Shown here piece after piece: positions 5,418-55,295 of a stretch of 64,000 bases of DNA. Under the pieces are notes generated by a model. It made no database searches and was not told where the DNA came from. It worked only from the letters and a program-made list of their open reading frames with translations. How positions within the stretch are numbered: position 1 is the stretch's first letter; every line of letters starts with the position of its first letter. Made by a program: the position numbers and the translations under genes. Source of the stretch: Chitinophagales bacterium (lineage in GTDB: Bacteria > Bacteroidota > Bacteroidia > Chitinophagales > JADJOU01); contig JAURJQ010000022.1 in assembly GCA_030832185.1 (NCBI GenBank), positions 124,001 through 188,000 on the forward strand, in the 5' to 3' direction.

Positions 5418-5504
5418 GATTTTGAAAGTTTTGAATTTTAAGTTGGAGATGATACAATATAAAATTCCATAAAAACTAACAATTACAAATTAAAACTAAC
5501 TAGT

Positions 5505-6494: not shown

Positions 6495-6532
6495 TTGGCT
6501 GGAGTGATTTATAATTTTGTATTTAACTTTAA

Positions 6533-6775
6533 TCAAAATTAAGAATCAAACTCCAAGCAATCAAAAATCCAGATAAAAAACTAGGGATAAATCCAGCAGG
6601 ACTAACAGCTAGTGTAGCAGATTTAGAAAAAAACATACAAGAGCAAAGCAAATTTGTAAATACCTATATCCAAACCCAACATAAGCAAAAGTCTATTTTA
6701 TTCGAAAGAATTTACCACATTTCGTTTACCAATGAAGAAATAGCAAATTATTTGCCCTCTATTTTCCTCGACTGA
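6533..6775 (+). pseudogene. Unidentified decayed coding fragment
   Basis: An open frame of 80 codons with no start codon, running from just after a TAA at 6530 to a TGA at 6773. Its translation is protein-like: charged and amphipathic, with segments such as INPAGLTASVADLEKN and FTNEEIANYLPSIF. It is probably the 3' end of a lost gene. It lies head-on to the broken methyltransferase, so a restriction-modification partner is conceivable, but I cannot identify it. Confidence 0.35.
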
Positions 6776-7060
6776 TCCTTTATAATACCACAATACTCTT
6801 AAGATCTTTCGAAACCAATATGATTTTTGCCTAGCTTCTGAGCTGCTAAGGCCTTGCTAATCCACAAAAAGATAGACCGCTGCGCCTAGCTTGGCTAAGC
6901 GAAAGCATTCTGCCAGAACATCTTCTAAGAAAACTAAGTACTCCTCCGTATTGTAGAGATCAGATTCGAATTCGGGGACTACATATTTCTGATTTTTAAG
7001 CCCTCAGACGCACTTGACAAGGTATTGGAAATACGGAGGATCTGTAAATATCAATTTTCA
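6770..7060 (-). pseudogene. Broken N4/N6 DNA methyltransferase fragment
   Basis: On the minus strand one frame encodes LIFTDPPYFQYLV, where DPPY (within 7028-7045) is the catalytic motif IV of amino-methyltransferases that modify adenine N6 or cytosine N4. The same frame continues past a TGA (7004-7006) into SDLYNTEEYLVFLEDVLAEC and then RLAKLGAAVYLFVD, which resembles the strand-helix region after motif IV, and ends at a TAG (6857-6859) exactly 49 codons later. With two in-frame stops, no start and no AdoMet-binding FxGxG segment, this is a remnant. The 658-base gap between obg and nadK holds only this and the opposite-strand fragment. Confidence 0.55.
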
Positions 7061-7152
7061 CTTTCATTCTTCATTTTTTTTAAAACCCGCTAGGCAGTCT
7101 AAATTACAGACTTTATTAATAGTCATAACTTAATACGTTCAGTTATCCTAAT

Positions 7153-8022
7153 CTATGCAAGCGACTTCTTTCCCCAGTATAATTTTTCTTTGAGCGCATT
7201 CCAAAAATTACTTTCATTTGGCTGATATATATAAAAAGAATTTGGCGCCTTTCGCACCGAAATGATGTGCTGTGAGGTGATATGAGTCAGCCGCGAGTCA
7301 AGAGTGCATAAAAACTCTGGGGTCCGCCCTTTGATCTCAAAGCTAAGAACTGTATCATCTGGCAGCACAATAGGTCGTATATTCAAATTATGTGGCGCTA
7401 TAGGGGTAATAATAAAGCTATTGGTACTCGGGTGTAGAATAGGTCCACCGCAACTCAGGGAATAACCAGTAGATCCGGTAGATGTGGAGATTATCAAACC
7501 GTCGGCTATATATTCATTGAGAAATTCTCCATTGGCATAGGCGGTGACCTCTATCATAGAAGAGGTATTCGCACGGAGAAATGTAAGGTCATTGAGGGCT
7601 ATATTTTCATTTATAAATATAGGGATGTTGGCATTAACCTCCAGAAGCATGCGCTCTTCTATATTTTTAATTCCTTCTTGAAATTTGAGAATAGCTCCAT
7701 AGGACTCTTCTTTATTTACACCCGCCAGAAAACCCAGTCTGCCTAAATTCACTCCCAACACTGGAGTCTGCGTAAGTTTAGTCAATACCACAGTATCCAG
7801 TATAGTGCCATCACCACCTAGGCTTATCATCAAGTCTGGCTTAATTTCTTTGATATCTATACAATTCTTAAAACTAGATATAGATTGATTAGCTAAATCC
7901 AACTCTTGCAGTTCTTCACATAGATAGAGATCCATGTGATTCTTTTTAATAAATTCAAGAAGAGTTAGCGCATAGTCTTTATGCTGCTCTTTTAGTTTTC
8001 TGCTATATAATGCTATTTTCAA
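7153..8022 (-). CDS. nadK: NAD kinase
   Basis: Phosphorylates NAD to NADP in the cytoplasm. The 289-residue protein has the catalytic GGDGT motif at residues 69-73 and the glycine-rich STSTGSTGYSLSCGGPI segment that binds NAD, followed by the beta-sandwich C-terminal region (PIAPHNLNIRPIV). Length and motif order are standard. It is the last gene of a minus-strand cluster, 6 bases after the CBS-domain gene. The pairing with a CBS protein suggests adenine-nucleotide sensing, but that is inference. Confidence 0.95.
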   Translation of the reverse strand: MKIALYSRKLKEQHKDYALTLLEFIKKNHMDLYLCEELQELDLANQSISSFKNCIDIKEIKPDLMISLGGDGTILDTVVLTKLTQTPVLGVNLGRLGFLAGVNKEESYGAILKFQEGIKNIEERMLLEVNANIPIFINENIALNDLTFLRANTSSMIEVTAYANGEFLNEYIADGLIISTSTGSTGYSLSCGGPILHPSTNSFIITPIAPHNLNIRPIVLPDDTVLSFEIKGRTPEFLCTLDSRLTHITSQHIISVRKAPNSFYIYQPNESNFWNALKEKLYWGKKSLA

Positions 8023-13876: not shown

Positions 13877-16800
13877 CTACCTCAGCAGCATAAAATTTCC
13901 TTCTCCAGCAACTATTTTTCCTGGTATAAAAGATTCTGCTTCGTAAGTATAATAGAATACGTCTGAATTCTGAGGTAAATCTTTATAATTTCCATCCCAC
14001 CCAGTTTTTTCATCATTCGTAAAGAATATAAGTTGACCCTGTCTATTAAATATTTTAAAACTTACAAGTTTTTTGATACCAAATCCACGAGCATAGAGTA
14101 TATCGTTATTCCCATCTCCATTCGGAGAGAAGGCTGTAGGAACTCGCACCACTATATCAGGATATAAACGAATCACGTATTTATAGGAAGATTTAAAACA
14201 TTTTCTAAAATCCTCTATTGTTAGATTATACGTTACTGAATCAAAGATTCTCATCATTGGATTGGCACAATTTTCACACGATGGATTTTTCCATTTAGGC
14301 GTCCAAGTATAGCTCCAATAAGTATCATAACCTACTGGGAGGGTAATCTCTTTTCCCATTTCTATGATAGTATCCCAGGATCTTTCTTTACGAGGTTGAA
14401 TCACTACAGCGTTTAATGATACAGAATCACTGCACCCATTGGGCGATGTAGCCTTTAAATTAAATCTAGTGGTTTCTGAAATCTGGGTAGATATCGGCGA
14501 ACTACTATATGGTGAGGCATTAAAACTATCTGGGGACAAAAACAACTTTGAATTCGGTATATCTACCTGATACTTTATATCCAGTCGCTTGCCTAGACAG
14601 ACAGAATCCACTTGGGCCGAAACTTTAGGTTTTGGAAATAGTATGATCGTAGAAGCCGAGCTATCGACACATCCCAGTGGACTGCGATAGGCGTATTGTT
14701 TGATTCTATAGGTACCAGGCTGCTGATAATTATATAGCATTAACTTATCGCTCGATAGACTTGTATCACCATTGCCGAAATTCCACTTGAAATAATCCGC
14801 TCTAGGAGCCGTATTATGAATACTGACAGGTCCTAGACAGTATGCTGTATCCGTTTTATTATTCAAATGATGTCTAGAAAGTGCTTCATAAACTAAGACC
14901 GTATCCACTTTAGCCAGAGGACAAGATTTGCCCGGTGCGAATACTATAAAACTAATAGGTACCGAATCAGAAAAAGCATTTGCTGTAGTATAACGATGTG
15001 TGACGACTCTTTCTATTCCACTTCGGATGGTTCCATCTCCGAAAGACCATAAAACAGTATCTACATCTACAGCATTAATTAATGTAAAGGTGATACTATC
15101 ATTCTTGCAGATAGCTGGTTTATCAAGTGAAAGAGTCGCTTCTGGTCCATAGACGGTATCATGTATAGGTATTGTCAAAAAACACCCATAACTTGTCCAA
15201 AAAATTGCCTCGATGAGATTCGGTCCTTTATCCAAATCTATAGTAGCAGGATTCACCGTCCTAGGACTTCCTTTGAATAGATATTTAAATTCCAGAGAAG
15301 GAATAAAGGCGCTATCATAAAACTTGACTGTGGTGACTCCGGGAAAACACTTATTGGCAGCTAAATCAAATGAATTATCTATCTGAAGTCGAGGTCTAGG
15401 ATATACGATAGTCACGTCAGTAAATGTTCTGGTACATCCTGTTTGGCGTCTTGTCTTTTCTAATTTTATGTTATGGATCCCAAGATTACTAAATTTATAA
15501 TTCAACTGGTAAGTAGTGTCATTTGGAATCAAAACATTATTGACATACCAGCGATATTGATACTTAAGAATATCATTTTCCGTACTTCGAATATTGTGAG
15601 TAAGTTCCTGACAAGTGGTATCTGGCACGATTAGATCTGAAGTATCGGACGTGAAATAAAAAAACTTCTCCAATACCTTATCTTGACAGTTTTTAGTATC
15701 TTGTATCTCCAGTCTAATTTTAAACGTATCGGCAAATCTTGTTTCTGCATAAAACAAGGTATTGAAATCCGTAGATACAAAAAACTGTGTATCGTTATTA
15801 TTTTTCACGAAGGAGACACTCCAAAAAACATTAGATATGCCAAAAGGACTGGTAGAAAGATTTTGTAAATTAATCCATTGAGCCGGTGGACAGCTATCTG
15901 TATAGTCTACCTTAAAATCGATATGATTATCGGTGACTATGATTCTTTTCGTTATCTTATCATCACACCCATTGATATCACGTGCTATAAGGGCCAGATT
16001 CATGGTATCCTCCCAGATATAGACGGGTATAGAGTCACTAGATGTATACGGAGGATATTTCTTACTGGGGTTGCCCGGCTTAGCTATACTCTCCAGCTGC
16101 CAGGTATATCTATACCCTTGATCCATATCTGCATTTCTACTTTGGCTAGGGTTAAATGTATATGGAGTGCCATTAAGGAAGAGCGTTGGATTTATTCGAC
16201 GACAGAAAAGGGTATCGGTAAAAATGGCCTTGACCTTTCTTATTTTGATGAGGGTAGAATCTTCATATCGGCATCCATTAGGATTTTCAGAAGACAGTTT
16301 GACCATATAGTCTATACTATCTCCTATAAATTTATGCCATACCGTATCTCTCAAGGTATCAAAAATATTTCCATCTCCAAAATTCCAGTTGATCTTGGTA
16401 TAGATATCTGCCGTATCGGTTACGAAAAATTGAATACTATCTCTTCGACTGCATTTGAAATCATAATTGAGATTAAATTTCGGTCCAGAAATAGTCAAAC
16501 TATCCATAGTGCTCGTGGTGCAACCCAATTTTTCCGCTATCAAATAGATATACTGTTTGCCTACATTATAAAAATTTTTATGCGTAAAATTAATCTGTTC
16601 GAAGCAGTTAAAACTCTTTTCCTTATCTGTCACAAAATACCACCGATCAAAGTTGCTGGAATTTGCCACAGCTACTGAAGTACTGTCTGATATACAAAAG
16701 TTTTTATTAGATATAATCAACGCCGGCAAAATAGAATCTGCTCTATACGTGTAAACAGGATTCACTGTATCGATGCAACCCAAGGTGTTTTTCACTATAG

Positions 16801-18448
16801 CATATGTTTTATAGGTGCCTGGATTTACGAATACATGATCCAGCTTATTTGTCTTGGTGCGCTTCACACTTCCATCGCCTAAATACCATATAACAGAATC
16901 GATACTTCCCTCTCCAAAGTGGTGTACAACAAAAGAATCTTTTCTTCCTTTACAACCTTTAGTGTAATGATTTACGAGATGTGGTCTAAATAAAGACTCC
17001 TGAAATCCCCTATACCAATCGGTGAACGTATGGACGCAATTGGTCTCTAAATTTCTAAAAGCTATTTTCGTGTGAAGCGTCAATGGTCCTCTGCGATAGT
17101 ACTCATCTGTTTTTAATAATCGATCCAGACCATAAGGTAAAATAGTATCAGGTCCAGCTCTTGAATCACTATCATTTCTGCGAATATTGAAGCTATCGGT
17201 TCTAATCATGATCCCATACTTGTCTGTATAAAACATTTTAAAATCAATAACATCCCAGCAAGGCGTCCATCGCCTAGCCACAATAGTATCTCTAAATGGG
17301 GTTCCGCAGTTTCTACTAAATCTAAATTCTGGCAATGGATAGCTTTGACAAATATTGACCTTTTTAGCAACTGTAGTTTTACAAGACGTGTCTGCTTTGT
17401 TTATTTTAGTGATATACAGGTAGGCCCAGGTATCTATATTAGGATTATCCGCGTAGAACCCTGAGAAAAAAAAGCTATCCCCCACTAAAATAGTTTCTTT
17501 ATTGAAAATATTCGCTCCCGACAATCTCAATTGAGATGAAAATTCATAGATAAATTTTGACGTATCTAAATCCTTTATTTTTATTTTACCGTAATATGGC
17601 GAACGACACACTCTACTGCTAGCTGTGTAGTCTAGGAAAGGAGTGTCTACTTTTAATCTCACGGTATCATAGCCTAGACAGCCATATTGATTTCGGGCGG
17701 CTAAAGTAATTGTAGCTAAGGTATTGGTTGTAAAAATTAAGTTAGGAGGATTGATATTGGTAGAGCTTCCGACAGTCGGCTGATCCCATTTCCATAGGTA
17801 GGTCAGGGTGGTATTGAGTGTGTCTTTAGATTTGTTAGTAATATTAGGGGTAAAGGGCACCTTACAAGCCGTAACAGGTGTCAAATCAATCTTAGCCCGA
17901 GGGACATCTAAAATTCTAAAAAAAGAATCTTTCTTTAACTCACCATAGCAGCTAGGAATGCTAGTATTGACCTGCATAGTCACGTAGCAGTAGTGTAAAT
18001 AATAACTAGGAATGACATCTATTGCGGGACTACCTAGTTTTGATCCTCCATTTTGATATATCCATCGAACAACCGTTGGCGTGACCCCAGTAGGATAGCT
18101 CGTAATATCTTTTAGATTAAACCTAAAAGGAAAACAACCCGTATTAGAAGAATCTGTGGTGAAGTTAAAGTTCAATTTAGGGTGTATAGTAATAGTTCTA
18201 GTCAAGCTGCCTATAGTGACGGTATAGGTTCCTGGTAGGTTATAACTAAATATGGGTGAATCAATGGTAGGGGTGCTTCCATTTCCGCTATTCCACTGCT
18301 GACCAGAATGCGTATTACCTACCGTATAGAATTTAAATGTATCTGGGGCACAGCCTACATATCTATTAGACGTTGTATTAATCTGGGCTTCTAAACCCAA
18401 AATAATAAAACAAAATGATATGAAAAAACTTAACCCAATACCTTTCAA
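13877..18448 (-). CDS. Large secreted PKD-repeat protein with T9SS type B sorting domain
   Basis: A 1523-residue secreted protein. A signal peptide (about residues 1-21, ending GLEAQ) is followed by many Ig-like/PKD-type repeats with the hallmark GDG...H.F...GTY.V (for example WYLGDGSVKRT then FVNPGTYKTYAI), many pairs of Cys, and numerous aromatic-rich strands. The C-terminal ~90 residues are the CHU_C / gliding-motility-associated domain: VPTAFSPNGDGNND, FKIFNRQGQLIFF, GWDGNYKDLPQNSDVFYY. This targets it through the outer membrane by T9SS and surface attachment. Repetition suggests an adhesin-like or structural role. It is monocistronic and divergent from the M43-like gene. Confidence 0.92.
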   Translation of the reverse strand: MKGIGLSFFISFCFIILGLEAQINTTSNRYVGCAPDTFKFYTVGNTHSGQQWNSGNGSTPTIDSPIFSYNLPGTYTVTIGSLTRTITIHPKLNFNFTTDSSNTGCFPFRFNLKDITSYPTGVTPTVVRWIYQNGGSKLGSPAIDVIPSYYLHYCYVTMQVNTSIPSCYGELKKDSFFRILDVPRAKIDLTPVTACKVPFTPNITNKSKDTLNTTLTYLWKWDQPTVGSSTNINPPNLIFTTNTLATITLAARNQYGCLGYDTVRLKVDTPFLDYTASSRVCRSPYYGKIKIKDLDTSKFIYEFSSQLRLSGANIFNKETILVGDSFFFSGFYADNPNIDTWAYLYITKINKADTSCKTTVAKKVNICQSYPLPEFRFSRNCGTPFRDTIVARRWTPCWDVIDFKMFYTDKYGIMIRTDSFNIRRNDSDSRAGPDTILPYGLDRLLKTDEYYRRGPLTLHTKIAFRNLETNCVHTFTDWYRGFQESLFRPHLVNHYTKGCKGRKDSFVVHHFGEGSIDSVIWYLGDGSVKRTKTNKLDHVFVNPGTYKTYAIVKNTLGCIDTVNPVYTYRADSILPALIISNKNFCISDSTSVAVANSSNFDRWYFVTDKEKSFNCFEQINFTHKNFYNVGKQYIYLIAEKLGCTTSTMDSLTISGPKFNLNYDFKCSRRDSIQFFVTDTADIYTKINWNFGDGNIFDTLRDTVWHKFIGDSIDYMVKLSSENPNGCRYEDSTLIKIRKVKAIFTDTLFCRRINPTLFLNGTPYTFNPSQSRNADMDQGYRYTWQLESIAKPGNPSKKYPPYTSSDSIPVYIWEDTMNLALIARDINGCDDKITKRIIVTDNHIDFKVDYTDSCPPAQWINLQNLSTSPFGISNVFWSVSFVKNNNDTQFFVSTDFNTLFYAETRFADTFKIRLEIQDTKNCQDKVLEKFFYFTSDTSDLIVPDTTCQELTHNIRSTENDILKYQYRWYVNNVLIPNDTTYQLNYKFSNLGIHNIKLEKTRRQTGCTRTFTDVTIVYPRPRLQIDNSFDLAANKCFPGVTTVKFYDSAFIPSLEFKYLFKGSPRTVNPATIDLDKGPNLIEAIFWTSYGCFLTIPIHDTVYGPEATLSLDKPAICKNDSITFTLINAVDVDTVLWSFGDGTIRSGIERVVTHRYTTANAFSDSVPISFIVFAPGKSCPLAKVDTVLVYEALSRHHLNNKTDTAYCLGPVSIHNTAPRADYFKWNFGNGDTSLSSDKLMLYNYQQPGTYRIKQYAYRSPLGCVDSSASTIILFPKPKVSAQVDSVCLGKRLDIKYQVDIPNSKLFLSPDSFNASPYSSSPISTQISETTRFNLKATSPNGCSDSVSLNAVVIQPRKERSWDTIIEMGKEITLPVGYDTYWSYTWTPKWKNPSCENCANPMMRIFDSVTYNLTIEDFRKCFKSSYKYVIRLYPDIVVRVPTAFSPNGDGNNDILYARGFGIKKLVSFKIFNRQGQLIFFTNDEKTGWDGNYKDLPQNSDVFYYTYEAESFIPGKIVAGEGNFMLLR

Positions 18449-40311: not shown

Positions 40312-41205
40312 ATGCGCAAACTATTACTTGCCTTATTTCTCTGCCTCTGTATTAATCTTATTAATAGTCAGGTGATAAATTCAGAAGATATTCCTGATTT
40401 TAAGTATACCAAGAAATCCTACTTAGTATATGACATAGATGGAAAATATCAAACGACTGCTTCCCGAGATAGCGGACTAACTAGAAATTACGAAACAATG
40501 GATATGGATTTTTTCGATCTGGACGATAGAAAGACTAGCCTTGTCAGGATACAGCAGCCAGTTTTAGTTTGTATAGAAGGTTATTATATAGATAAGCTAA
40601 AGTCTGGAACATTTGTATATTCTATCCTTGATAGCCTTAACCCTCAAAAGCGCTTTAAGATATGGGAACAGTCCTTTAGAAAAGGAAAATTGAATGGTAT
40701 GAGTAAAGCATACACTATTCAGGGAAAGGTAGCTGCTGAATATAACTACCAAGACGACAGCCTAGTAGGTAAATCAAAGCTCTATGGTGCTGATGGCCAT
40801 ACTATTATAGAAGAAATTAGTTATGATCTAGAAAGAGGTAAGTATGTAAAACGGACCTATAATGATACTAGTGGCAAATTAATGCGAGAAGAAAACTACT
40901 CAAATTATACATTAAATGGCATATCAAGAGATTTCTACGCAAATGGGCAGGTGGAAATGGAGGAATTTTATATTGATGATAAGCTAAATGGCACGCGCCG
41001 ACACTTCTATCCTTCTGGAGCGCGCTGGACAGAGGTAGAATATAGAAATGGTAAAACATGGACAGCCCTAGGAGCGTATCTTGAAAATGGAAGGCCCCTC
41101 TTTCCTGGCTCATTAAGCAATGGAACCGGTGTGCTGCATATCTACGACCGCTATGGTGTTGTTCAGGAATCCTATATGTTTATGAAAGGAGAGTTTATAA
41201 AGTAA
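40312..41205 (+). CDS. Secreted MORN_2-repeat protein (YwqK type)
   Basis: A 297-residue protein with a signal peptide (residues 1-19, ending INSQV). The C-terminal two-thirds contains MORN_2-type repeats: KLNGMSKAYTIQGKVAAEYNY, LNGISRDFYANGQVEMEEFY, LNGTRRHFYPSGARWTEVEY. These proteins are often labelled as YwqK-type antitoxins, but a secreted form more likely has an envelope or structural role; I infer no toxin partner. The stop abuts the stop of the convergent HmuY-like gene with no gap. Confidence 0.82.
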   Translation: MRKLLLALFLCLCINLINSQVINSEDIPDFKYTKKSYLVYDIDGKYQTTASRDSGLTRNYETMDMDFFDLDDRKTSLVRIQQPVLVCIEGYYIDKLKSGTFVYSILDSLNPQKRFKIWEQSFRKGKLNGMSKAYTIQGKVAAEYNYQDDSLVGKSKLYGADGHTIIEEISYDLERGKYVKRTYNDTSGKLMREENYSNYTLNGISRDFYANGQVEMEEFYIDDKLNGTRRHFYPSGARWTEVEYRNGKTWTALGAYLENGRPLFPGSLSNGTGVLHIYDRYGVVQESYMFMKGEFIK

Positions 41206-42204
41206 TTAAAAATCTCTTTGCAAAAAAGTAATGAACCCATTTACTGGCTTCTTATCTACCGTTTTCGTGAATGAAACAAATTGCAATCCGTGTTTTTTGC
41301 CCGCTACACTTACTACATAGCTGCGAGGTAGAATAGAATAAAAACCATCCGGACCCCCATTACTAAATTTTTTCCAATCATGGCCTACAGCCGACAAACT
41401 TGACAAATAGTTATAAGAAGACAAACTAGATTCACTTATATTCTCAAGATTGACATTTTCTAGCTTTGCTATTTTAACATTTTTAGAAGGATTGGAGATA
41501 AGTCCGGCTACACCATACATTTGTGGTTGACTAAAATCTGTGACAAAGGTGGTATATCTGGTCACTTCAAAATCCCAACTCATTTTGTCCGTAGGCTCTA
41601 TATCCTGAACAGTGCCCGTAACTAGAGAGACGTAGGTATAATGGGTAGAAAAATTTAACGGAATGGTCAATGTTTTTTCATTGCTACCATCTATATTGGC
41701 ATAGCGGAAACTAACTTCAGTCGGGGTATAGGTAAGTATTTGAAACTTGATACTAGGAAAGTAAACACCAGGATAACTTAGATAATATACATTGAACAAA
41801 CCTCTTGAAAATAAATCTGCAGCGCTATCATAATAGTTTGCATAGATAGGTTTTCTTACAGTATCAAAAAATGCTTGTTCGATAGATCTAGACCAAATCG
41901 TATCATTTTTTGATGTTCCCCAGCAGCTTTTCCCAAAGGCATAATTCATAATGACTTTATTCATATTTGTAGGATCATTCGCAAAAGCTATATGCCAACT
42001 GAGGTTATCCGATGTTTTGACAATAGATCTTGATGCTAGTTGATAATAAATCTTAGCCTTATACTCATTCGCTTGGTCCAGATTAAGTTCTACCTTAGGA
42101 AAGGGAGATAACTCAACATTTATAGGCCCGTCTATTTCTTTTAGGCAAGAGGTTAAGAATACAGTTGAAAAAACAATGATCCCAAAAATTAGTTTACTTA
42201 ACAT
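41206..42204 (-). CDS. HmuY-like lipoprotein, heme-capture candidate
   Basis: A 332-residue lipoprotein (lipobox VFLTSC, lipidated Cys at about residue 20). The fold follows HmuY, a heme-binding hemophore: the NLSWHIAFAN and KMSWDFEVTRYTTFV strand signatures are present and the protein has a late LPRSYVVSVAG region. HmuY coordinates heme by two histidines in Porphyromonas; the corresponding ligands cannot be placed by eye. It overlaps the TonB-receptor gene by 11 bases and is the last gene of the gyrA run. It is a likely surface or outer-membrane ligand carrier feeding the receptor. Confidence 0.75.
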   Translation of the reverse strand: MLSKLIFGIIVFSTVFLTSCLKEIDGPINVELSPFPKVELNLDQANEYKAKIYYQLASRSIVKTSDNLSWHIAFANDPTNMNKVIMNYAFGKSCWGTSKNDTIWSRSIEQAFFDTVRKPIYANYYDSAADLFSRGLFNVYYLSYPGVYFPSIKFQILTYTPTEVSFRYANIDGSNEKTLTIPLNFSTHYTYVSLVTGTVQDIEPTDKMSWDFEVTRYTTFVTDFSQPQMYGVAGLISNPSKNVKIAKLENVNLENISESSLSSYNYLSSLSAVGHDWKKFSNGGPDGFYSILPRSYVVSVAGKKHGLQFVSFTKTVDKKPVNGFITFLQRDF

Positions 42205-44446
42205 TGTCTAGATTTAAGGTGATACTTGTAAAAATGGTTCTTCCCCATAGATTATTGACTTCACTATTCGGCGCACTATGCACATTTCCCGAGAAGCCAG
42301 ATACTCGCAGATTTCTAATGTTTAAAATATTCTTAACACCTATTGTAATATTCAATTTATCATTCCATATATTTTTAGAAGCACTAAGATCAGAATACAT
42401 AAAGGCTGGTATAGCAGACTCTTCTACACTATTGGTCTGTAAATTATAAACTACGAAAGGATTGTATGAATTAAACTTATTGACAGATGTAAATTTCATA
42501 TCCCACTTTTTATAATAATAAGTTAGATTGGCGTTAATCGTCCAGTTAAATAAAAAATAATCTAGTTGATTCGTTGAGTTGCTGAATAAACGCTGGAAAC
42601 CATTAAACGAAGTGCCAAGCACGAAAATGTAATCTTTATATTTTACACGATTATCTATATTAGTTATAAGCCCTCTCACATTGCCTATGTTCAGATACTT
42701 AAATTCATTTGTATTTGGATTAACATTGACTATATCTATGGCGTTTGATTTATTGAAATAAGTAAAGTTTAGTGAGGATGAATATGATACCAAACTGCTA
42801 GAAGCTTTTACCTTCTCTGGTTTGACATCTATGCCAAATTGGAAATTATCATTGGTTTCTGTCGTCAAATTAGGGTTTCCAGTAATATTATGATTAATGT
42901 CAATAAACGTAAAGTAAAGCTCCTTTAACTCAGGTATGCGATAGCCTCGGCTAAATGCAAATCTGGAACTAAAATGTTTACTGAGTTCATATCTAAAGTT
43001 GACAGTAGTAGATATGGGAGTGGGCGCTACATTATTAATACTATATCTTAAACCTGGCTGCATAAGTAGTTTTTCAGAGAACTTGTAGTTAGCCATTACA
43101 AATAAACTTAAATCAGTTATTGCCTTGGCACTAGAATCCAACTTCTGAGAATTACCGATATCCATATTGAAGTCTGCACCATAGAGCAAATTAAGCCTTT
43201 TACTTGGTATTTCATGCTTGATTTGAGAACGTCCAAAGATGTTATAAATTTTTTCATTGACATCTCTTAAATATGTTCGACTTCCTGCTATTAAATCTTG
43301 ATTATAGTATTCAATATTTCGCGAAAAATAATTAAAGTTAGAATAATTTTGCCACTCTACATACTTTGAGAATATAGTATTGGTATTGCCGCCTACGTTA
43401 AACTTAGTAGTCTTGTAGTATTCATCATTCACCAGGATTTGCTGAGAAGATGCAGGATTTAATTTATTCATAATACTTTCCCAAAATCCATTTATTTTCA
43501 TATGCAGACTCGTCTTTTTAGACAATGGGGCATAGTAGGATGTATTAACCATAAATTGCTCCTTAGGGTTCCATGCTAGATCTCGCCAAATAGGTTTGAC
43601 GAATCTTTTTAGAGAATCTTCATTCTGATCCCAGCCAAAGAAAACATTTCTATGAACGCCTAGACTTAACCTATGGCCTTTGACAGAGGTATTATAATAT
43701 ACATTGGCATTCACCACACCTACAGATTCTGCATATAGGTTCGCTTTAATATTAGACTCATAGGCTGTTCCAGTTTTCGTAATTAAATTTATAACACCAC
43801 CTGTAGCATTAGTTCCGTAGATCGTAGAAAGTGGTCCATCGACTACTTCAATTTTTTCAATATTGCCTAGTAATATTTGAGAATAATCTATATTACCATT
43901 TAATCTTCCTGCCACAGGTATGCCGTCAATCATTAGCTTTAAGTCAGAGCCACTCATACCATTTATCGAAACTTTAGTGCCTAATATGGGATCTTGGGTT
44001 ATCGTAAAGTTATTTTCTGTCAATAAAAAATCAGCTAGAGTCACCGCATTTTTATTCTTAATTTCTTCTGCAGTATAAAATTTTATTTTGAATGGAGATT
44101 GATACTTATTTCCTGGTACAATCTGACCGGTAACCAATACCTCTTCCAATAAATTTTTTATCGGCTTCATAAAAACCGACTTAGTATAAAGAGACCTGTT
44201 TATGACAATGCGAGTCATTCCTAATTTAAACATAATGACCGAATCCCATTCTGCGAAATACTTAAAATAAACTTCTCCCTTAAAATTAGATCTTGTGACG
44301 TCAAGAGATCTATTCTGGAAAAAAAGAATTGAGGTAACTCCTTCTAAAGGCTCATTAGTGATAGAATGCTGAACTATAAATTCTTGGCTAAATAGCGGAG
44401 TTGAAGAAACGAAAACCAAAAATAAAAAAACAAGGGAATGCCTCAC
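42194..44446 (-). CDS. TonB-dependent outer-membrane receptor
   Basis: A 750-residue receptor. A signal peptide (about 1-20, ending LFSQ) is followed by a carboxypeptidase-regulatory-like N-terminal domain (NEPLEGVTSILF), a TonB-box-like LEEVLVTGQ near residue 105, a plug domain (IMIDGIPVAG-like, DGPLSTIYGTNATGGVINLITK), and a 22-stranded type barrel with terminal FTSITLNLDN. The plug's YGTNATGGVIN is typical of siderophore/heme receptors. Flanked by HmuY-like genes on both sides, it most probably imports heme or a related ligand. TonB/ExbBD are not in the window. Confidence 0.9.
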   Translation of the reverse strand: MRHSLVFLFLVFVSSTPLFSQEFIVQHSITNEPLEGVTSILFFQNRSLDVTRSNFKGEVYFKYFAEWDSVIMFKLGMTRIVINRSLYTKSVFMKPIKNLLEEVLVTGQIVPGNKYQSPFKIKFYTAEEIKNKNAVTLADFLLTENNFTITQDPILGTKVSINGMSGSDLKLMIDGIPVAGRLNGNIDYSQILLGNIEKIEVVDGPLSTIYGTNATGGVINLITKTGTAYESNIKANLYAESVGVVNANVYYNTSVKGHRLSLGVHRNVFFGWDQNEDSLKRFVKPIWRDLAWNPKEQFMVNTSYYAPLSKKTSLHMKINGFWESIMNKLNPASSQQILVNDEYYKTTKFNVGGNTNTIFSKYVEWQNYSNFNYFSRNIEYYNQDLIAGSRTYLRDVNEKIYNIFGRSQIKHEIPSKRLNLLYGADFNMDIGNSQKLDSSAKAITDLSLFVMANYKFSEKLLMQPGLRYSINNVAPTPISTTVNFRYELSKHFSSRFAFSRGYRIPELKELYFTFIDINHNITGNPNLTTETNDNFQFGIDVKPEKVKASSSLVSYSSSLNFTYFNKSNAIDIVNVNPNTNEFKYLNIGNVRGLITNIDNRVKYKDYIFVLGTSFNGFQRLFSNSTNQLDYFLFNWTINANLTYYYKKWDMKFTSVNKFNSYNPFVVYNLQTNSVEESAIPAFMYSDLSASKNIWNDKLNITIGVKNILNIRNLRVSGFSGNVHSAPNSEVNNLWGRTIFTSITLNLDNVK

Positions 44447-44454
44447 GATTGACC

Positions 44455-45750
44455 TTAATGTACAAATAATTTATGAGAATAAATTTGAGAATCATTCTCT
44501 ATTTGTAAGAAGATCAACTTGTTTTTAAACGCATTCACATCTATCTTTAAATCAGCTCCCATAGTTGATTTATAAAGTACTTTACCTGTGATATCAAATA
44601 AGGTTACTAATTTTTTTTGCACACCTTGAGTTTTACTGACCATTTTCAAATCAGATCCATCTTGATAAACTTTTATTTCATTTTCTTCAGGATAGCCCGA
44701 CGATATAGAAGATATACTTCCCTTATTTATAAATGCAATATTGATAGATTTACTAGCTGCATCATAGGTAGTGAAAACGATATGCCATAACTTATTATTT
44801 CTATCTTTTAGAAAATAGCTTCTTCCAGAAGCTGGCTGACCAGATGTTTTATTAAGCCACTTCTCGCCTATTTGATTAAATTCTCTAGAAATAGGATCGG
44901 GAGAATTTAGTGAATTATTATAGAGTACCGTAGCTGGATCACCAATAGCCTCATAGGCTTCTGTTTTCACTACTCCTGGTTTTAAATATTCTTCAGGATA
45001 GCCAGCTATAGAAGACATTCGTATTAAATTGTGCGCGTTATTAGTTAAGACTCCTATAGGAAAAGTCTCTAAGCCCACATTATATTTTCTAAACAACAGA
45101 TCCCAATCATTATAGAGTGGCTCAAAGTCATTGGTCACTGCTCCAGTACTAAGATTAATATATCTATAATGTCTGGCAATAGGCGATACTTTAGATACTA
45201 CAATAGTTCTCGGATTCGAATTGTCGAGATCTGCATATCTTATGGTGAACTCGCGACCTGGAGAAGACTTATACGAGATATAAAATTTGCCATAGACATT
45301 ATCCTCACGCTTTACAATGTATATCTTAGTGGCTACATTGACGAAGCTAGGGTCTGTATAAAACGTACCAATACCAATATTAAATGAAGTATTAAAACTA
45401 CCTCTATAAAAGGTATCTAAGGCCCCATAGTAAAAGATACTAGAGCTATTAACCACAGAATTCAAGGTATCGGTGAAAGTTATGGCTGAAAACTGAGTTG
45501 TATCTTTATAAACGCGCCACACTTTCACACCTCTAGTTTCATTGATTTTTCCACCTATTTCATGGACTTCATTGTACAAAGCAATATCCCAACCTGTTTG
45601 GGTCTTTACGGAAGTGGTATTTGAGTTTAAATTTAAAAATACATGATCCGTGTCTTCTACGATAATGCTCTTAACTGTATAATTAGTGGGAGGGTTATTT
45701 TGAGCTATCGATAAAATAGGTATGGTACATAGCAATAAAAATCTTTTCAT
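44455..45750 (-). CDS. HmuY-like protein with T9SS type A sorting domain
   Basis: A 431-residue secreted protein with a signal peptide (about 1-17). Residues about 25-260 show HmuY-type strands (WDIALYNEVHE, NDWDLLFRKYNVGLETFPIGV), linked to a second beta domain, and the last ~75 residues (KKLVTLFDITGKVLYKSTM and LKIDVNAFKNKLIFLQIE) form a T9SS type A sorting domain. It would be exported by T9SS and may bind ligand at the surface or in the medium, while the downstream lipoprotein remains at the cell. It is 9 bases downstream of the TPR gene and 8 bases upstream of the receptor. Confidence 0.78.
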   Translation of the reverse strand: MKRFLLLCTIPILSIAQNNPPTNYTVKSIIVEDTDHVFLNLNSNTTSVKTQTGWDIALYNEVHEIGGKINETRGVKVWRVYKDTTQFSAITFTDTLNSVVNSSSIFYYGALDTFYRGSFNTSFNIGIGTFYTDPSFVNVATKIYIVKREDNVYGKFYISYKSSPGREFTIRYADLDNSNPRTIVVSKVSPIARHYRYINLSTGAVTNDFEPLYNDWDLLFRKYNVGLETFPIGVLTNNAHNLIRMSSIAGYPEEYLKPGVVKTEAYEAIGDPATVLYNNSLNSPDPISREFNQIGEKWLNKTSGQPASGRSYFLKDRNNKLWHIVFTTYDAASKSINIAFINKGSISSISSGYPEENEIKVYQDGSDLKMVSKTQGVQKKLVTLFDITGKVLYKSTMGADLKIDVNAFKNKLIFLQIENDSQIYSHKLFVH

Positions 45751-45759
45751 TTTCAGTAT

Positions 45760-46881
45760 TTATTTTACTCGATTAATTTGTTCAAATATTTTCTCAAAAT
45801 CTACTTTCTTCTCATCTATAATTTTGGCCTTTGCGAAATACTCTTTGGCCTCCTTGATGTTCGATAATGCCTTAGGTCGCGTAGCATCATTTTGTTCATT
45901 TAGAATACCAAGCGAAGAATTAAATAGAGCATAACCCAGACCATAATTTAAATCAAAATCATTAGGATACAACTTAAGTCCTTTACGATAATTTTCAATA
46001 GACTCTTCATATTTATCTTGACTTTCTAAGGTCTGAGATTTCACCAAATAGAGAGCAGTAGTTGGTGCCTGACGAATAGCTTCATCTAATTGCTTCAAGG
46101 CTGCGCTATATTCTTTAGCATCCAAACTACGATTAATAGAAAAAATAAGTAAATCTGGATCCGCAGGATACTTGGCTATACCTTCCTCGATATATTTATA
46201 AGCTGCTGATTTATCATCCAGCTGAAAACAAAGTTGGATAAGTCTAGCATAAGAAACTGCAGAACCTCCCGATGATACTTCTTTTTCAAATAAGGCTTTT
46301 GCTTCGTCTTTTTTATCACTATTGATGCAAAAGACGACCATATTATTGGTGATGTCATTGGAGGAAAGCGTAGTTTTCTCTCCTGTATTAGAAACCAAAG
46401 TAAAGTCCAGTTTATTCTCTACTAATACAGACTGAATTTCAAACAAATTTTTGTACAAATCATAGGCTAAACTATTTTTATTCTCTTTGTGCATTTGTAT
46501 ACCTTCAGAATATAAATCATAACCTAATATTTGCATCAATCTGAATAGTTGTTCTTTATTCTTAAAGTTTTTATTAATTCTGTAAACATTAATGAGTCCT
46601 TTGGACGCAGATAAGATATAATTCGTTTTTTCTATAGGCTTCTTAGATTCATAATATTGCTTGGTGATCAAACCCAAATAGTATTGAGCATCCTCACTTT
46701 CTAGATTCTTAGAATCTTTCATAGCCTCAGTGATTAACTCATAGGCCTTCTCCAAGTCTGATAGCTTAGACTCTTTCATAAAGCTAGTATAGTATGAGCC
46801 GGCCTTAGAGACCTCCTTGGTCTGACTATAAACTATAGAGCCTAAACTCAAAAACAGTATAAAGAAAAAAACTATTCTCAT
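45760..46881 (-). CDS. Secreted TPR-repeat protein
   Basis: A 373-residue periplasmic or surface protein starting at ATG 46881, which gives a signal peptide (MRIVFFFILFLSLGSIVYSQ). The in-frame GTG at 46902 is an alternative. The chain is built of helical repeats; typical TPR units include YIEEGIAKYPADPDLLIF, ALKQLDEAIRQAPTTALYLV and IENYRKGLKLYPNDFDLNYG. It lacks catalytic motifs. It is 24 bases after gyrA from the ATG (3 from the GTG), and 9 bases upstream of the HmuY-like T9SS gene, so it likely scaffolds or assists that system. Confidence 0.82.
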   Translation of the reverse strand: MRIVFFFILFLSLGSIVYSQTKEVSKAGSYYTSFMKESKLSDLEKAYELITEAMKDSKNLESEDAQYYLGLITKQYYESKKPIEKTNYILSASKGLINVYRINKNFKNKEQLFRLMQILGYDLYSEGIQMHKENKNSLAYDLYKNLFEIQSVLVENKLDFTLVSNTGEKTTLSSNDITNNMVVFCINSDKKDEAKALFEKEVSSGGSAVSYARLIQLCFQLDDKSAAYKYIEEGIAKYPADPDLLIFSINRSLDAKEYSAALKQLDEAIRQAPTTALYLVKSQTLESQDKYEESIENYRKGLKLYPNDFDLNYGLGYALFNSSLGILNEQNDATRPKALSNIKEAKEYFAKAKIIDEKKVDFEKIFEQINRVK

Positions 46882-46905
46882 CTCTATATTTTTATATATC
46901 ACAAA

Positions 46906-49503
46906 CTATTCCGCATCTCCTTCTTCAGGAGTATTATTTTCCATAGCATCATCTTCTGTATCCATAACTGTCCCGTCATCGATGAGCGGATTATCCTCAT
47001 CTTCAAAATCATCATCCTCATCTACCACTACTTTGGCTACGGCTGCTATGCTATCTTTCTTATCCAATTTTATCAAAGTCACTCCTTGCGTTGCTCTACC
47101 TACTACGCGCATTTTATCTACGCCAAGGCGTATAGCAATACCAGATTTATTAATAATCATTAGATGATTTCCATCTACCACATTTAGTATAGAAATTAGA
47201 TTTCCTGTTTTTTCTGTAATATTGAGGGTTTTGACACCTTTTCCTCCTCTATTAGTCACTCTGTAAATAGCTTCTCCATCTTCGGGATCGTCTATATAAG
47301 TTCGTTTCCCAAATCCTTTTTCACTGACTACCAATACAGTTTGAGGTATCTCACTCGATTTGTCTACACTGACTATACCTATTATTTCATTACCCGGGTT
47401 ATCTCCTAGATCCATACCAGTGACTCCAGCAGCCGTTCTGCCCATCGAACGCACTTTATTTTCATTAAATCGAATTGCTCTTCCATCTTTAGAGGCTATG
47501 ATCATTTCCATATTACCATTTGTCAATAATGCATCAAGTAATTCATCTTCTTCGCGAATAGTAATAGCAATAACTCCATTCTGTCTTGGCCTAGAAAATT
47601 CTTCTAAAAGTGTCTTTTTTATCACACCATTTTTAGTACAGAAGAAGACATAATGAGAATTGATATATTCCTCATCTTTTATGTTTTCGATAGGTAGATA
47701 GGCTAGTATTTTTTCATCGCCTGCTATATTCATAAGATTCTGAATAGCACGCCCCATGCTCGTTTTATTCCCCTCAGGTATTTCATATACATTGATCCAA
47801 TAACATCGTCCTTTACTTGTAAATAATAGAAGCACATTGTGGGTATTGGCTATAAATAAGTGCTCGGTGAAATCTTCTGTTCGAGATTTAGAACCCTTAG
47901 CTCCGCGTCCTCCTCTATTTTGCTCTCTGTACTCTTCTAAAGACGTTCTTTTGATATAACCTAGGTGTGAAATAGTCACCACGACTTGCTCATTAGCTAT
48001 TATATCCAGAATATCAATATCGCCAGAAGTGGCTATAATATCAGTTTTTCTGGCATCGCCAAATTTTTCTTTCATCTCTATCAGTTCATCTTTGATAATC
48101 TGCATGCGAAGGTTGACATCCGAAAGAATTTCTTTTAGTTTGTTTATCAAATCCATCAATCGCTTGAACTCATCCTTCAGTTTGTCAATTTCTAGACCTG
48201 TTAATGCTCCTAGTCGCATATCAATAATGGCTTTAGACTGCAATTCTGATAGCGTAAATCTAGACTCCAAGTTTCGCTGCGCTTCTGACTGACTAGGTGA
48301 TTTTTTGATTATTTCAATTACCTCATCTATATTGTCTACGGCTATAATAAGACCTTCGACTATGTGCGCTCTCGCCTCAGCTTTTCGCAGTTCGAATTCA
48401 GTTCGACGTGTAATGACATCATGTCTAAAATCGATAAAGTGATGAATTAATTGTTTTAGATTCAATAATTCTGGCCTACCATTTACCAAGGCTATATTAT
48501 TGACACCGTATGAAGTCTGCAATTGAGACATCTGAAAAAGTCTATTCAATACTACGTTGGTGATAGCGTCTCTTCTCAGTTCGATGACCAATCGCATACC
48601 ATTTCGATCTGATTCATCTCGCACATCTGATATTCCCTCTATTCGACCTTCATTGACTAATTCAGAAATCTGCACATGCAATTTCGCTTTATTGACCTGA
48701 TAAGGAATCTCAGTAATAATGATACTTTCGCGATTATTCTCTACCTCTATTTCAGCTCTACCTCGCACCACAACTTTACCTCTTCCTGTCTCAAATGCTT
48801 CTTTCACACCATCTATACCGTATATAACACCGCCAGTTGGAAAGTCTGGCGCTTTAATATGCTGCATCAATTCATCAATTGTCACATCATTATTTTCAAT
48901 ATATGCGATACAACCATCAATAGATTCACTAAGATTGTGTGGTAGCATATTGGTAGCCATACCTACAGCTATACCACTAGATCCATTCACCAATAGATTA
49001 GGAATCTTAGTAGGCATGACTTTAGGCTCATCAAGTGTATCGTCAAAGTTTTTCTGAAAATCGACGGTCTCTTTTTCTAAGTCATTGACGAATTCCATAG
49101 CTATCTTACTCATACGAGCTTCCGTATAACGCATAGCCGCTGGACTATCCCCATCTACTGAACCAAAATTACCCTGACCATCTACTAGCTTATAACGTAG
49201 ACTCCAATCTTGGGCCATACGCACCATCGTATCATATACAGATGAGTCTCCATGCGGGTGAAATTTACCCATGACCTCTCCCACTATTCTAGCAGACTTT
49301 TTGTATGCACTAGAGGCTGTGACGCCCAACTCATGCATACCGAAAATAACTCTTCTATGCACAGGTTTGAACCCATCTCTCACATCCGGAATAGCTCGAG
49401 CTACAATGACAGACATAGCATAATCTATGTAACTGTCTTTCATAGAATCACTAATATCTACATTAATAATTCCCTTCTTATCCTTATCATCAAATTCACT
49501 CAT
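46906..49503 (-). CDS. gyrA: DNA gyrase subunit A
   Basis: Breakage-reunion subunit of gyrase. The 865-residue protein has the catalytic Tyr126 in AMRYTEARM, the quinolone region [18 protein letters not shown] with Ser87 and Asp91 in the positions of E. coli Ser83 and Asp87, and a C-terminal wrapping domain with the GyrA box as QNRGGRG (usual QRRGGRG). The last ~35 residues are very acidic ([11 protein letters not shown]), as in many gyrase A tails. Topoisomerase IV ParC is unlikely because of the GyrA box and full six-blade region. It is the first gene of the run with the HmuY/TonB genes. Confidence 0.96.
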
Positions 49504-52059: not shown

Positions 52060-53058
52060 CTACCTCTGAATCTTCATTTCATTCATCTTTCGATGATAGC
52101 TAGAGGCAATGGATTCGTGCTCGGCTAGAGAGCGGCTAAAAAGATGATAGCCATTGAGGCTAGAGTCTGCGCAGTAGTATATGTAATCATGAGCTTCTGG
52201 CATCAAGACCGCATCGAGGGTACTTAGCTCTGGCATGCAGATAGGCCCTGGGGGTAATCCTATGATTTTATATGTATTGTAGGGGGAATTATACTGAGTA
52301 TGATAATAGTTGACCCTTTTGGCAGCAAAGTCTCGAGTGGCATATTTACAGGTGGCATCCACCTGGAGTGGCATATTGATTTTCATTCGATTGACCAGCA
52401 CACCTGCTATTTTAGAGCGCTCATCTTTTCGGGTGTATTCTTTCTGCACTAGACTAGCTAAAATGTACACTTCTGAAGGCTGGAGATTTAGTTTTTGCGC
52501 TTTTGCTCGTCGTTCCGCATTCCAGAATTTTTCCGTCTCCTTATGTATCTTAGTTAGTAGATCTTCAGGACTAATATCCCAGTAGAATTCATAGGTATTG
52601 GGCAGAAAAAGAGCCAAGGCATTCTCCTTAGAATAAACCCGCTGGCGCAGCTGAATACTATCATAAAGTACCCTCATAAAATCCAATGAGTCCATTTCTA
52701 ACTTCTCAGCTGCCTTCCCTGCCAGTTCTTCGACAAAGGTAGCCGTAGAAATCGTCCATCGAATGGGATCTTGCCTACCGAATTTAAGTTTCCGTAGAAT
52801 ATCAAAACTTGTCATTGATTTTTTAAGCCGATAATGCCCAGCAGGCACGGATTTTACTTCATAAATCAAATGAACCAAATCGAAAATATATGTATTTTTG
52901 ATAACCGAATGCGCTGACAAACTATCCATAACGGCTTTAATCGTCGTGGGCTCTCTTAATTTTAAACTATACTCATTCGCTACATTTCCTTTGTAAATAA
53001 ACAAAAGAAAAAAAACGACAGTAACCAGAAGTGTGAATATGCCAAGCTTCTTTACCAT
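52060..53058 (-). CDS. mltG: Endolytic murein transglycosylase MltG
   Basis: Cleaves nascent peptidoglycan strands at the inner membrane and sets glycan length. The 332-residue protein has one N-terminal membrane anchor (about 5-22) and a YceG-type LysM-like region, then the catalytic domain: ILASLVQKEYTRKDERSKIAG contains the conserved Glu (E207), followed by NRMKINMPLQVDATCKYA and YNSPYNTYKIIGLPPGPI. Its start overlaps the T9SS protein by 7 bases, linking wall remodelling to the envelope cluster upstream. Confidence 0.93.
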   Translation of the reverse strand: MVKKLGIFTLLVTVVFFLLFIYKGNVANEYSLKLREPTTIKAVMDSLSAHSVIKNTYIFDLVHLIYEVKSVPAGHYRLKKSMTSFDILRKLKFGRQDPIRWTISTATFVEELAGKAAEKLEMDSLDFMRVLYDSIQLRQRVYSKENALALFLPNTYEFYWDISPEDLLTKIHKETEKFWNAERRAKAQKLNLQPSEVYILASLVQKEYTRKDERSKIAGVLVNRMKINMPLQVDATCKYATRDFAAKRVNYYHTQYNSPYNTYKIIGLPPGPICMPELSTLDAVLMPEAHDYIYYCADSSLNGYHLFSRSLAEHESIASSYHRKMNEMKIQR

Positions 53059-55295
53059 CTGGTTATTTGTAGCTTTTCCGTTTGTAAAATTTCGCCATCA
53101 TCTACTAAACGCAGAATATACAAGCCCGGATTCAGTGAAGATACGTCCAGTGAATTCGTCTCATGTAGAGACTTTTCTAGAACTAATTTGCCCAATAAAT
53201 CATAGACTATGATTTCCATTGATTTAGATCTAGTCTCTAGCTGCAGTGTCAAGCTATGATCTGCTGGATTAGGATAGAGAATTAAGTTCTTTTTTCCTGC
53301 TGCAGCCTGCTGAGGTTTGACTCCTGCAGTAGAATATTTGCGCTGACCATCGAGTATAAGGCGCATCATAGGAGAACCTAATCTGCTCGGAGCAATATTT
53401 GATTTGGACCATATATTATTTAACTCCACAAAAATATTTTCAAAGCCTTTGGTGCTATTTCGATCATAGCCTATCTGTAGATTCCGTTCATCGGATTGAA
53501 TCCAGCCTACATAAATCGTATCCTGCACTTCTAGAGGCTCTTCGAGTCCGAAGGTCACAAAACTATTCATAGAATCTATATATTTAGGCTTCATATTGGT
53601 AAGGGTCTTTATTACTTCTTCTTTAGCACCATTCATACCGATAGTCTTCCATATCGTAAGGTTAAATAATAAACTAGAGACCGGTCCATTGATACTAGTA
53701 AATAAAATCTTGACGGCAGCTAACGTATCTTTATTAGGAATGAAGAATCGATAGGCCACTTTTTTAGTACCTAAGCCCTGCAGTCCATAAGCCCATTCGG
53801 CAGTTCCATCGTCATAAGCCATTTCATTAAAGAAAAACTGGCGTGTGGTAGCTGTGTCATTGGTTACAAAACCGTCGGACTGATCTAGGTAGATTTTGGT
53901 AGTCACATAAGTGCTATCCTCAATGAAAACAGGGAAATTTAAATCTGCATTAGACTCTAGCGGATGATAAACTAAAGGATCGGCTGAAAAGGTCTTTCCA
54001 GCTGTATTATTGGCAAAGATCAAACCTGTATTCTCATTGATACAATTATACTTATAGGCATTAAATATAGGTGCAGGATATATGTTTCTATTGATACCGA
54101 AGATAGTATCTTCTAGGTCTATACCTCCTCTATATTGCTGGGTAGGAAGTAGGGTGAAACGCTTGAGAATAGAGGGCAATTCATAGACGAAGTTAGCATC
54201 TCTCAAGCTAGTATCCTGAAAGGTTCTACCCGTATCTAGTCGCACATAGTCTATATGCCAATGGTCATTATTGCCAGATATTGTGGCATAGTTTTTAAAT
54301 CGAAACTGAAATTTATTATGAAAATAATTTGGATCTGAAGCTACGATAGGGTCTGGTATATGAATAGATGCAAACTGAAATCCGATGGAATCAAGGGATC
54401 GTTCATCATTTTTAGTTCCTTTGACTGTCCATACCGGAAACCATCTACCTCTATCGTCAAGAAATTCAACTAGGAGAGAGTCTTCTACATTAGGATTATC
54501 ACCTAGTCCCTGTGGTTGATATAAAAAACTCAAATATGCTGAATCAGAACCATTATATGAAGCCAAAAGTATAGGTGCAGATGTGAGGTAATCTGCTAAA
54601 CCATAGGCATTCGTAGCCAATTTATTATAAGGTACTCCATATTCATTAAGTCCATCTAATGTGGCGACGCCTTTACTAGGAGGCATATATGGCAGGTGCG
54701 AATTGAAATATGCATGTCTATCCGTCCATAAATAGCCTTTTAAAAAAAAATCTTTTTTGTAGGCAGAATAAATCAAGGTATCATAGATGAGACTATCGGA
54801 TAGCAGCGCACCTGTTGCTGAAAATTTTCGTTTGATCGTAGGTGGGTAAATATTTTCCGAAACCAAGGTATTGCAATTCGGAGAGTCGTTCAGCGAAAAT
54901 AAAATAGGGCTAAGAGGTGTTGTGGAAATATAATCTGGCGGGAAGGCTGGATTGTAGGTATCTTCTGTAGAGGGAAGTTTAGAAAACCTATAATTACCCA
55001 TTTTATAGTTTAGCAGACCAGGGCATTTTCCGATAACATAATACTGGCTTATTGGACTGGGTAGATTTTTATTCGCTGGACGCTGCTTATTAGTTGAGAA
55101 CTCATCTACGAATGGAAGATCAATTTCTTCATAGGTGATAGTATAATTAACGGAATCTTGACCTCCTCTGGGTTTGAGTTCTAATTTCTGTGAAGGCTTC
55201 GTTAGAAGCGGATTAAAGTTTAGTGGGTATAAAACGTCCTGAGCACGGATATTGGCATTCAATGCTAAACATATTAAAGCAATAGAAATTCTCAA
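53052..55295 (-). CDS. Large secreted protein with T9SS type A sorting domain
   Basis: A 747-residue protein with a signal peptide (about 1-19, ending NIRAQ). The central 650 residues are beta-rich and show no recognised enzyme motif; segments such as HWHIDYVRLDTG suggest an MAM/lectin-like jelly-roll domain. The C-terminus is a type A sorting domain: LILYPNPADHSLTLQLE, YDLLGKLVLEKSL, SLNPGLYILRL. It is placed between the PASTA gene (23 bases) and mltG (7-base overlap). It may act at the cell surface; function unknown. Confidence 0.85.
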   Translation of the reverse strand: MRISIALICLALNANIRAQDVLYPLNFNPLLTKPSQKLELKPRGGQDSVNYTITYEEIDLPFVDEFSTNKQRPANKNLPSPISQYYVIGKCPGLLNYKMGNYRFSKLPSTEDTYNPAFPPDYISTTPLSPILFSLNDSPNCNTLVSENIYPPTIKRKFSATGALLSDSLIYDTLIYSAYKKDFFLKGYLWTDRHAYFNSHLPYMPPSKGVATLDGLNEYGVPYNKLATNAYGLADYLTSAPILLASYNGSDSAYLSFLYQPQGLGDNPNVEDSLLVEFLDDRGRWFPVWTVKGTKNDERSLDSIGFQFASIHIPDPIVASDPNYFHNKFQFRFKNYATISGNNDHWHIDYVRLDTGRTFQDTSLRDANFVYELPSILKRFTLLPTQQYRGGIDLEDTIFGINRNIYPAPIFNAYKYNCINENTGLIFANNTAGKTFSADPLVYHPLESNADLNFPVFIEDSTYVTTKIYLDQSDGFVTNDTATTRQFFFNEMAYDDGTAEWAYGLQGLGTKKVAYRFFIPNKDTLAAVKILFTSINGPVSSLLFNLTIWKTIGMNGAKEEVIKTLTNMKPKYIDSMNSFVTFGLEEPLEVQDTIYVGWIQSDERNLQIGYDRNSTKGFENIFVELNNIWSKSNIAPSRLGSPMMRLILDGQRKYSTAGVKPQQAAAGKKNLILYPNPADHSLTLQLETRSKSMEIIVYDLLGKLVLEKSLHETNSLDVSSLNPGLYILRLVDDGEILQTEKLQITRW

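Follow-up and report, generated by a model that had tools for sequence, protein, structure and literature searches.

A probable heme-salvage cassette with two tandem-domain HmuY-like proteins around one TonB-dependent receptor in a bacterium lacking heme synthesis

The 64,000-nucleotide stretch of DNA analysed here (the window) carries a gene for a TonB-dependent receptor flanked by genes for two different HmuY-like proteins, one with a predicted T9SS type A tail (T9 protein) and the other a predicted lipoprotein. These three genes probably form a heme-salvage cassette of an uncultured Bacteroidota bacterium which lacks heme synthesis. In such a cassette, the receptor would import heme while the lipoprotein, lipid-anchored at the surface, would sit at or over the receptor and pass heme to it, and the T9SS-exported paralogue, released or attached outside, would gather heme further from the cell. 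We infer heme binding by either HmuY-like protein, the lipoprotein-receptor complex and any order of transfer. Heme, which had been proposed as ligand in an earlier note on this DNA, is likely on sequence grounds because the receptor carries the FRAP-His signature of heme receptors and HemB is missing in most lipoprotein-bearing genomes.

The ORF list gives a minus-strand run of gyrA, a TPR protein, the T9 protein, the receptor and the lipoprotein, with intergenic gaps of 3, 9 and 8 nt followed by an overlap of 11 nt between receptor and lipoprotein (Table 1). The earlier note had described, around one receptor in a tight run starting with gyrA and TPR, two distinct HmuY-like proteins that differ in export route, one with a lipobox and the other with a signal peptide and a T9SS tail. 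The ORFs and the family profiles agree on the three cassette genes. The gyrA-TPR start is also present in the window, but this prefix was seen in this genus only, and for the same reason both genes were rejected as members of the system. Position 46881, taken in that note as the end coordinate, is an internal ATG of the TPR gene. The TPR protein diverges much faster than gyrA (dN 0.25 vs 0.04 against G001). At the other end, the gene after the lipoprotein encodes a MORN-repeat protein (40312-41205, plus strand), not a cobN-like hmuS or hmuTUV; it is convergent with the lipoprotein gene, which ends at 41206, with zero spacing. Comparison with the nearest species (G002) gave dN/dS of 0.24 for the lipoprotein, 0.07 for the receptor and 0.05 and 0.18 for two parts of the T9 protein, and from this range of 0.05-0.24 the three genes are maintained.

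Table 1. Coordinates of the cassette, its parts and the two upstream genes in the window
Feature	Position	Strand	Basis or remark
gyrA, first gene of the run	46906..49503	-	ORF; adjoins the cassette in this genus only
TPR protein, upstream of the T9 gene	45760..46902	-	Adjoins the cassette in this genus only
T9 protein, 431 aa: signal peptide, two tandem HmuY-like domains, C-terminal T9SS type A tail	44455..45750	-	
T9 protein, HmuY-like domain 1 (about residues 17-183)	45202..45702	-	hhalign
T9 protein, HmuY-like domain 2 (about residues 184-347)	44710..45201	-	hhalign
T9 protein, predicted T9SS type A sorting domain, diverged in the genus, without YPNPA motif	44458..44688	-	TIGR04183, PF18962, 8glk
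TonB-dependent receptor, 750 aa, plug and beta-barrel	42194..44446	-	Pfam
Receptor FRAP-His-NPNL heme-receptor signature YRIPELKELYFTFIDINHNITGNPNL, residues 502-527, invariant His519	42866..42943	-	
Receptor His723 codon, second invariant His, near the C-terminus	42278..42280	-	25/25 receptors
Lipoprotein, 332 aa: lipobox, two tandem HmuY-like domains	41206..42204	-	
Lipoprotein lipobox Cys20, followed by L-K-E-I-D	42145..42147	-	

Family PF14064 scored 20.9 bits on the window lipoprotein alone, below the cut-off of 27, and gave no match on the window T9 protein. A PF14064 search of the window's genome alone returned nothing, with controls likewise silent, and single-sequence PDB searches with the window proteins gave nothing useful. 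Because of these weak scores of single proteins, the HmuY label needed profiles of homologues, which were built from relatives in 60 related genomes. PF14064 matched 21 of the 23 lipoprotein homologues and 17 of the 26 T9 homologues (E <= 0.1). The lipoprotein family profile matched solved chains of the HmuY family (8b6a at 2e-9, 3h8t at 1.6e-8 and also 6eu8, 4gbs and 3u22), and the T9 family profile matched solved HmuY 3h8t at 5.6e-5. The two window proteins matched each other in blastp (4e-8), and their family profiles aligned with probability 100 and E 1e-50. Judged by these profiles, the T9 protein and the lipoprotein are remote HmuY relatives. AlphaFold models of the two proteins reached pLDDT of 39 and 36 from shallow five-row alignments, with rows drawn from the window, L061 and L063. 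The paired heme-ligand His or Met named as a check in the earlier note were looked for in the alignments of both families, and no His or Met was found conserved across either, which counts against heme salvage, although heme ligands of HmuY vary widely among the known homologues (PMC6200708).

Comparison of protein halves indicates that each flanking protein is composed of two HmuY-like domains in tandem, a point which was missed in the earlier note. Alignment of the N half with the C half by hhalign gave a probability of 94.7 (E 5.9e-8) within the lipoprotein and 95.0 (E 3.5e-8) within the T9 protein, each E-value being that of a single comparison, while control comparisons with the T9SS tail and receptor segments reached a probability of at most 8.5. 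Between the proteins, the N halves matched with a probability of 99.5 (E 1.9e-22) and the C halves with 99.9 (E 6.8e-35). These N-N and C-C matches are far stronger than the N-C matches, and the domain duplication therefore predates the split between T9 protein and lipoprotein. In a tree of 49 proteins, a single branch with support of 100/99 separated the lipoproteins from the T9 proteins, and this genus was on long branches in both parts. By tree and profile comparison, the two proteins are ancient paralogues.

The lipobox Cys is invariant in all 23 lipoprotein homologues, and the second residue after it is K, Q or R in every one of them (C-X-[KQR]). In Capnocytophaga, C-X-K-(D/E)2 was defined as surface-export signal (PMC5080379). 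C-L-K-E-I-D of the window lipoprotein is near but not exactly this optimum, which was defined in other families. With its lipobox and predicted export signal, the lipoprotein fits the surface-exposed lipoproteins of Bacteroidota. In the T9 protein, the tail scored 18.8 bits against TIGR04183 (cut-off 23). Por_Secre_tail (PF18962) matched 25 of the 26 T9 homologues (E <= 0.1) and the T9 family profile matched the solved T9SS tail 8glk at 1.1e-9. The T9SS translocon gene SprA is present in the window's genome, and the protein with its predicted sorting domain fits a T9SS type A cargo. Elsewhere in the window, a very large protein (13877-18448, 1523 aa) has a C-terminus resembling a gliding-type T9SS tail, and the C-terminus of another (53052-55295), which has YPNPA, resembles a T9SS type A tail, both by eye.

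The arrangement T9 protein, receptor and lipoprotein on the same strand was found at 18 loci within the order, spanning 12 genera and 9 families, and again at L135 and L136, both from another class. Gene order elsewhere in Bacteroidota had been set beforehand as a test able to refute the proposal, and its recurrence in these genera and in the other class supports it. Partial cassettes of both kinds were also observed. The receptor and lipoprotein occur without an adjacent T9 gene in five loci (L068, L075, L079, L086, L145), and the receptor and T9 gene without an adjacent lipoprotein in three (L070, L083, L092). Further families in the class and the phylum also have a receptor with a two-domain lipoprotein, L139, L140 and L142 being examples. 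In L137 (G249), T9 and lipoprotein genes are adjacent (5444-7770) and no family receptor was seen in the 13-kb stretch. Common flanking genes hinting at function were not found, as flanks vary by lineage except among close relatives. Reading of the ORFs near cassettes of other lineages, with no family search, recognised no hmuSTUV-like, cobN or other heme genes, which is a point against the heme-salvage reading.

The window's genome (98.95% complete) has neither ferrochelatase (HemH) nor HemB, and both are absent from all five genomes of the genus (completeness 99, 99, 99, 93 and 62%). COX1, which carries heme, is present in all five. A heme-salvage function predicts just this, an uptake system kept after synthesis is gone. 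The association was analysed among 299 genomes of the order which are at least 90% complete. The lipoprotein was scored as present at 230 bits or more, and HemB as absent, by inference, where a genome was outside the list of 202 HemB matches. Among 50 genomes with the lipoprotein, 43 lack HemB and 7 keep it, while 54 of the 249 genomes without the lipoprotein lack HemB and 195 keep it (Fisher p 6.8e-18, uncorrected for kinship). The 54 genomes with neither, and the seven with both, stand against heme salvage, and the HemB association itself is comparative. Genomes with only other profile hits, T9-type or remote, showed no link (46 with HemB, 21 without, p 0.88), and the idea that any profile hit tracks auxotrophy was rejected. 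Nearly all of 61 genomes checked for cytochrome oxidase keep it. In family f16, the lipoprotein frame of both genomes of one genus, G020 (C14:7864-8856) and G058 (C5:5234-6232), has one in-frame stop, with T9 gene and receptor kept nearby; this lipoprotein may be decaying although HemB is absent.

Two readings differ on how the binding proteins would serve the receptor. A quite plausible one, though short of probable, is parallel use, in which each protein supplies the receptor on its own: the lipoprotein would be its permanent partner, and the T9 protein would act as an accessory scavenger. The partial cassettes of both kinds fit this reading, as does the link of auxotrophy to the lipoprotein and not to the other profile hits, but full cassettes hold both proteins in fixed order over deep divergence, suggesting a joint role. 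A two-stage relay as proposed in the earlier note, in which the T9 protein captures heme and passes it to the lipoprotein and then to the receptor, is plausible but somewhat doubtful. The fixed order with the T9 gene first, the specialisation of the paralogues for two locations and the correlated divergence of the three proteins (r 0.55-0.70, one row per clade) speak for it. However, parallel divergence is what joint vertical inheritance alone would give, auxotrophy is tracked by the lipoprotein only, and the partial cassettes are of both kinds, so neither step strictly needs the other.

The receptor matched the Pfam plug (1.7e-18) and barrel (7e-20) families. FRAP, a His 14 residues further on and then N..L are found at constant spacing in all 25 aligned family receptors, as is the second invariant His, His723. 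FRAP and NPNL boxes with an intervening His mark heme receptors, whereas TonB receptors for other ligands do not conserve this His (PMC6449446, PMC6813434). In the alignment, Cir, FepA and XusA are without the signature His, and a FRAP-His regular expression found none with His in 25 other receptor loci, several of which may not span the whole region. The plug His of classical receptors (His128 of HemR) is not conserved in the family alignment, which is again unfavourable to heme salvage. TIGR01785 scored 72.8 bits on the receptor against a cut-off of 316.85 and was still the best-listed NCBIfam family. The next-best receptor in the window's genome scored 106 bits compared to 884 for the cassette receptor. 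Reuse of the HmuY fold for a ligand other than heme, such as a siderophore, cobalamin or another compound, appears unlikely. Among the profile neighbours of the receptor are indeed Cir, FepA, BtuB and XusA, a siderophore receptor (XusA at 1.2e-33), the binding proteins have no conserved His or Met, and loss of HemB also removes B12 and siroheme synthesis, which leaves some room for cobalamin. Nevertheless, the signature in every family receptor and its missing His in Cir, FepA and XusA, together with the tendency of lipoprotein-bearing genomes to lack HemB, argue for heme.

It is improbable that the HemB link is a by-product of kinship or small genomes and not of function: the p value ignores shared ancestry and the HemB-containing genomes of genus g27 without lipoprotein are larger, but the contrast recurs within g27 (HemB is missing from nine genomes that carry the lipoprotein and present in three that do not, and one genome has both) and within families f12 (G324), f14 (G033), f19 (G331) and f5 (G054), the lipoprotein genome of f5 is the larger one, and reduction would also delete the cassette, not favour it.

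The types of component in the proposed heme-salvage cassette are known. HmuY-HmuR of Porphyromonas gingivalis likewise places a HmuY-like lipoprotein of the surface next to a TonB-dependent heme receptor that carries FRAP and NPNL boxes. P. gingivalis HmuY, like the characterised members of PF14064, consists of one domain of about 200 residues, whereas the lipoprotein and the T9 protein have two domains each; the cassette also has two HmuY-like proteins, one exported via T9SS, and cobN or hmuSTUV were not recognised nearby. HmuY work is mostly from animal-associated bacteria. In Flavobacterium psychrophilum, HfpR-HfpY, a receptor and a HmuY-like heme-binding protein in one operon, is needed for heme use under iron scarcity, and HfpY shows less than 26% identity to other HmuY-like proteins (PMC9331221). 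It differs in having one HmuY-like protein, a DoxX-type gene between and no T9SS partner described (PMC9331221). C6N29_01035 of Flavobacterium columnare combines, as the T9 protein does, a HmuY domain with Por_Secre_tail and is T9SS-secreted; it was described as a single protein, with a lipoprotein partner unreported, and a deletion mutant grew without defect in the media tried (PMC9618737). Prevotella intermedia also has more than one iron-regulated HmuY homologue per genome, but the two do not flank a single receptor, as one has an orphan locus and the other belongs to a full hmu operon, and a split between T9SS and lipid anchor is not described (PMC10434189). In XusA-XusB of Bacteroides thetaiotaomicron, a surface lipoprotein similarly covers a TonB-dependent transporter like a lid and passes an iron compound to it, but XusB is a beta-propeller binding siderophores (PMC13142918) and XusA is without the FRAP-His motif. 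In the literature searched, no published account of the paired T9SS and lipoprotein arrangement was found, and the fixed pairing and its tie to lost heme synthesis appear undescribed.

The dual-route HmuY variant turns up repeatedly in related Bacteroidota that are known mostly from their genomes. If the heme-salvage reading is true, it would identify how heme enters these auxotrophs, the lipoprotein would serve as a genome marker of heme dependence, and cultivation could be aided by added heme or a heme-producing partner. As a tentative and rather doubtful extension, two tandem-domain HmuY hemophores in fixed pairing, one T9SS-exported and one lipid-anchored, that serve one receptor might be the standard heme-auxotroph route in a large uncultured group of Bacteroidota, heme being held by residues other than the known His-His or Met-Met pairs. 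The cassette is moreover a clean system in which to ask why a single receptor retains two paralogous binders, each in its own location. Four profile matches each were observed in three genomes (G012, G311 and G355), which apparently have more than one cassette or several paralogues.
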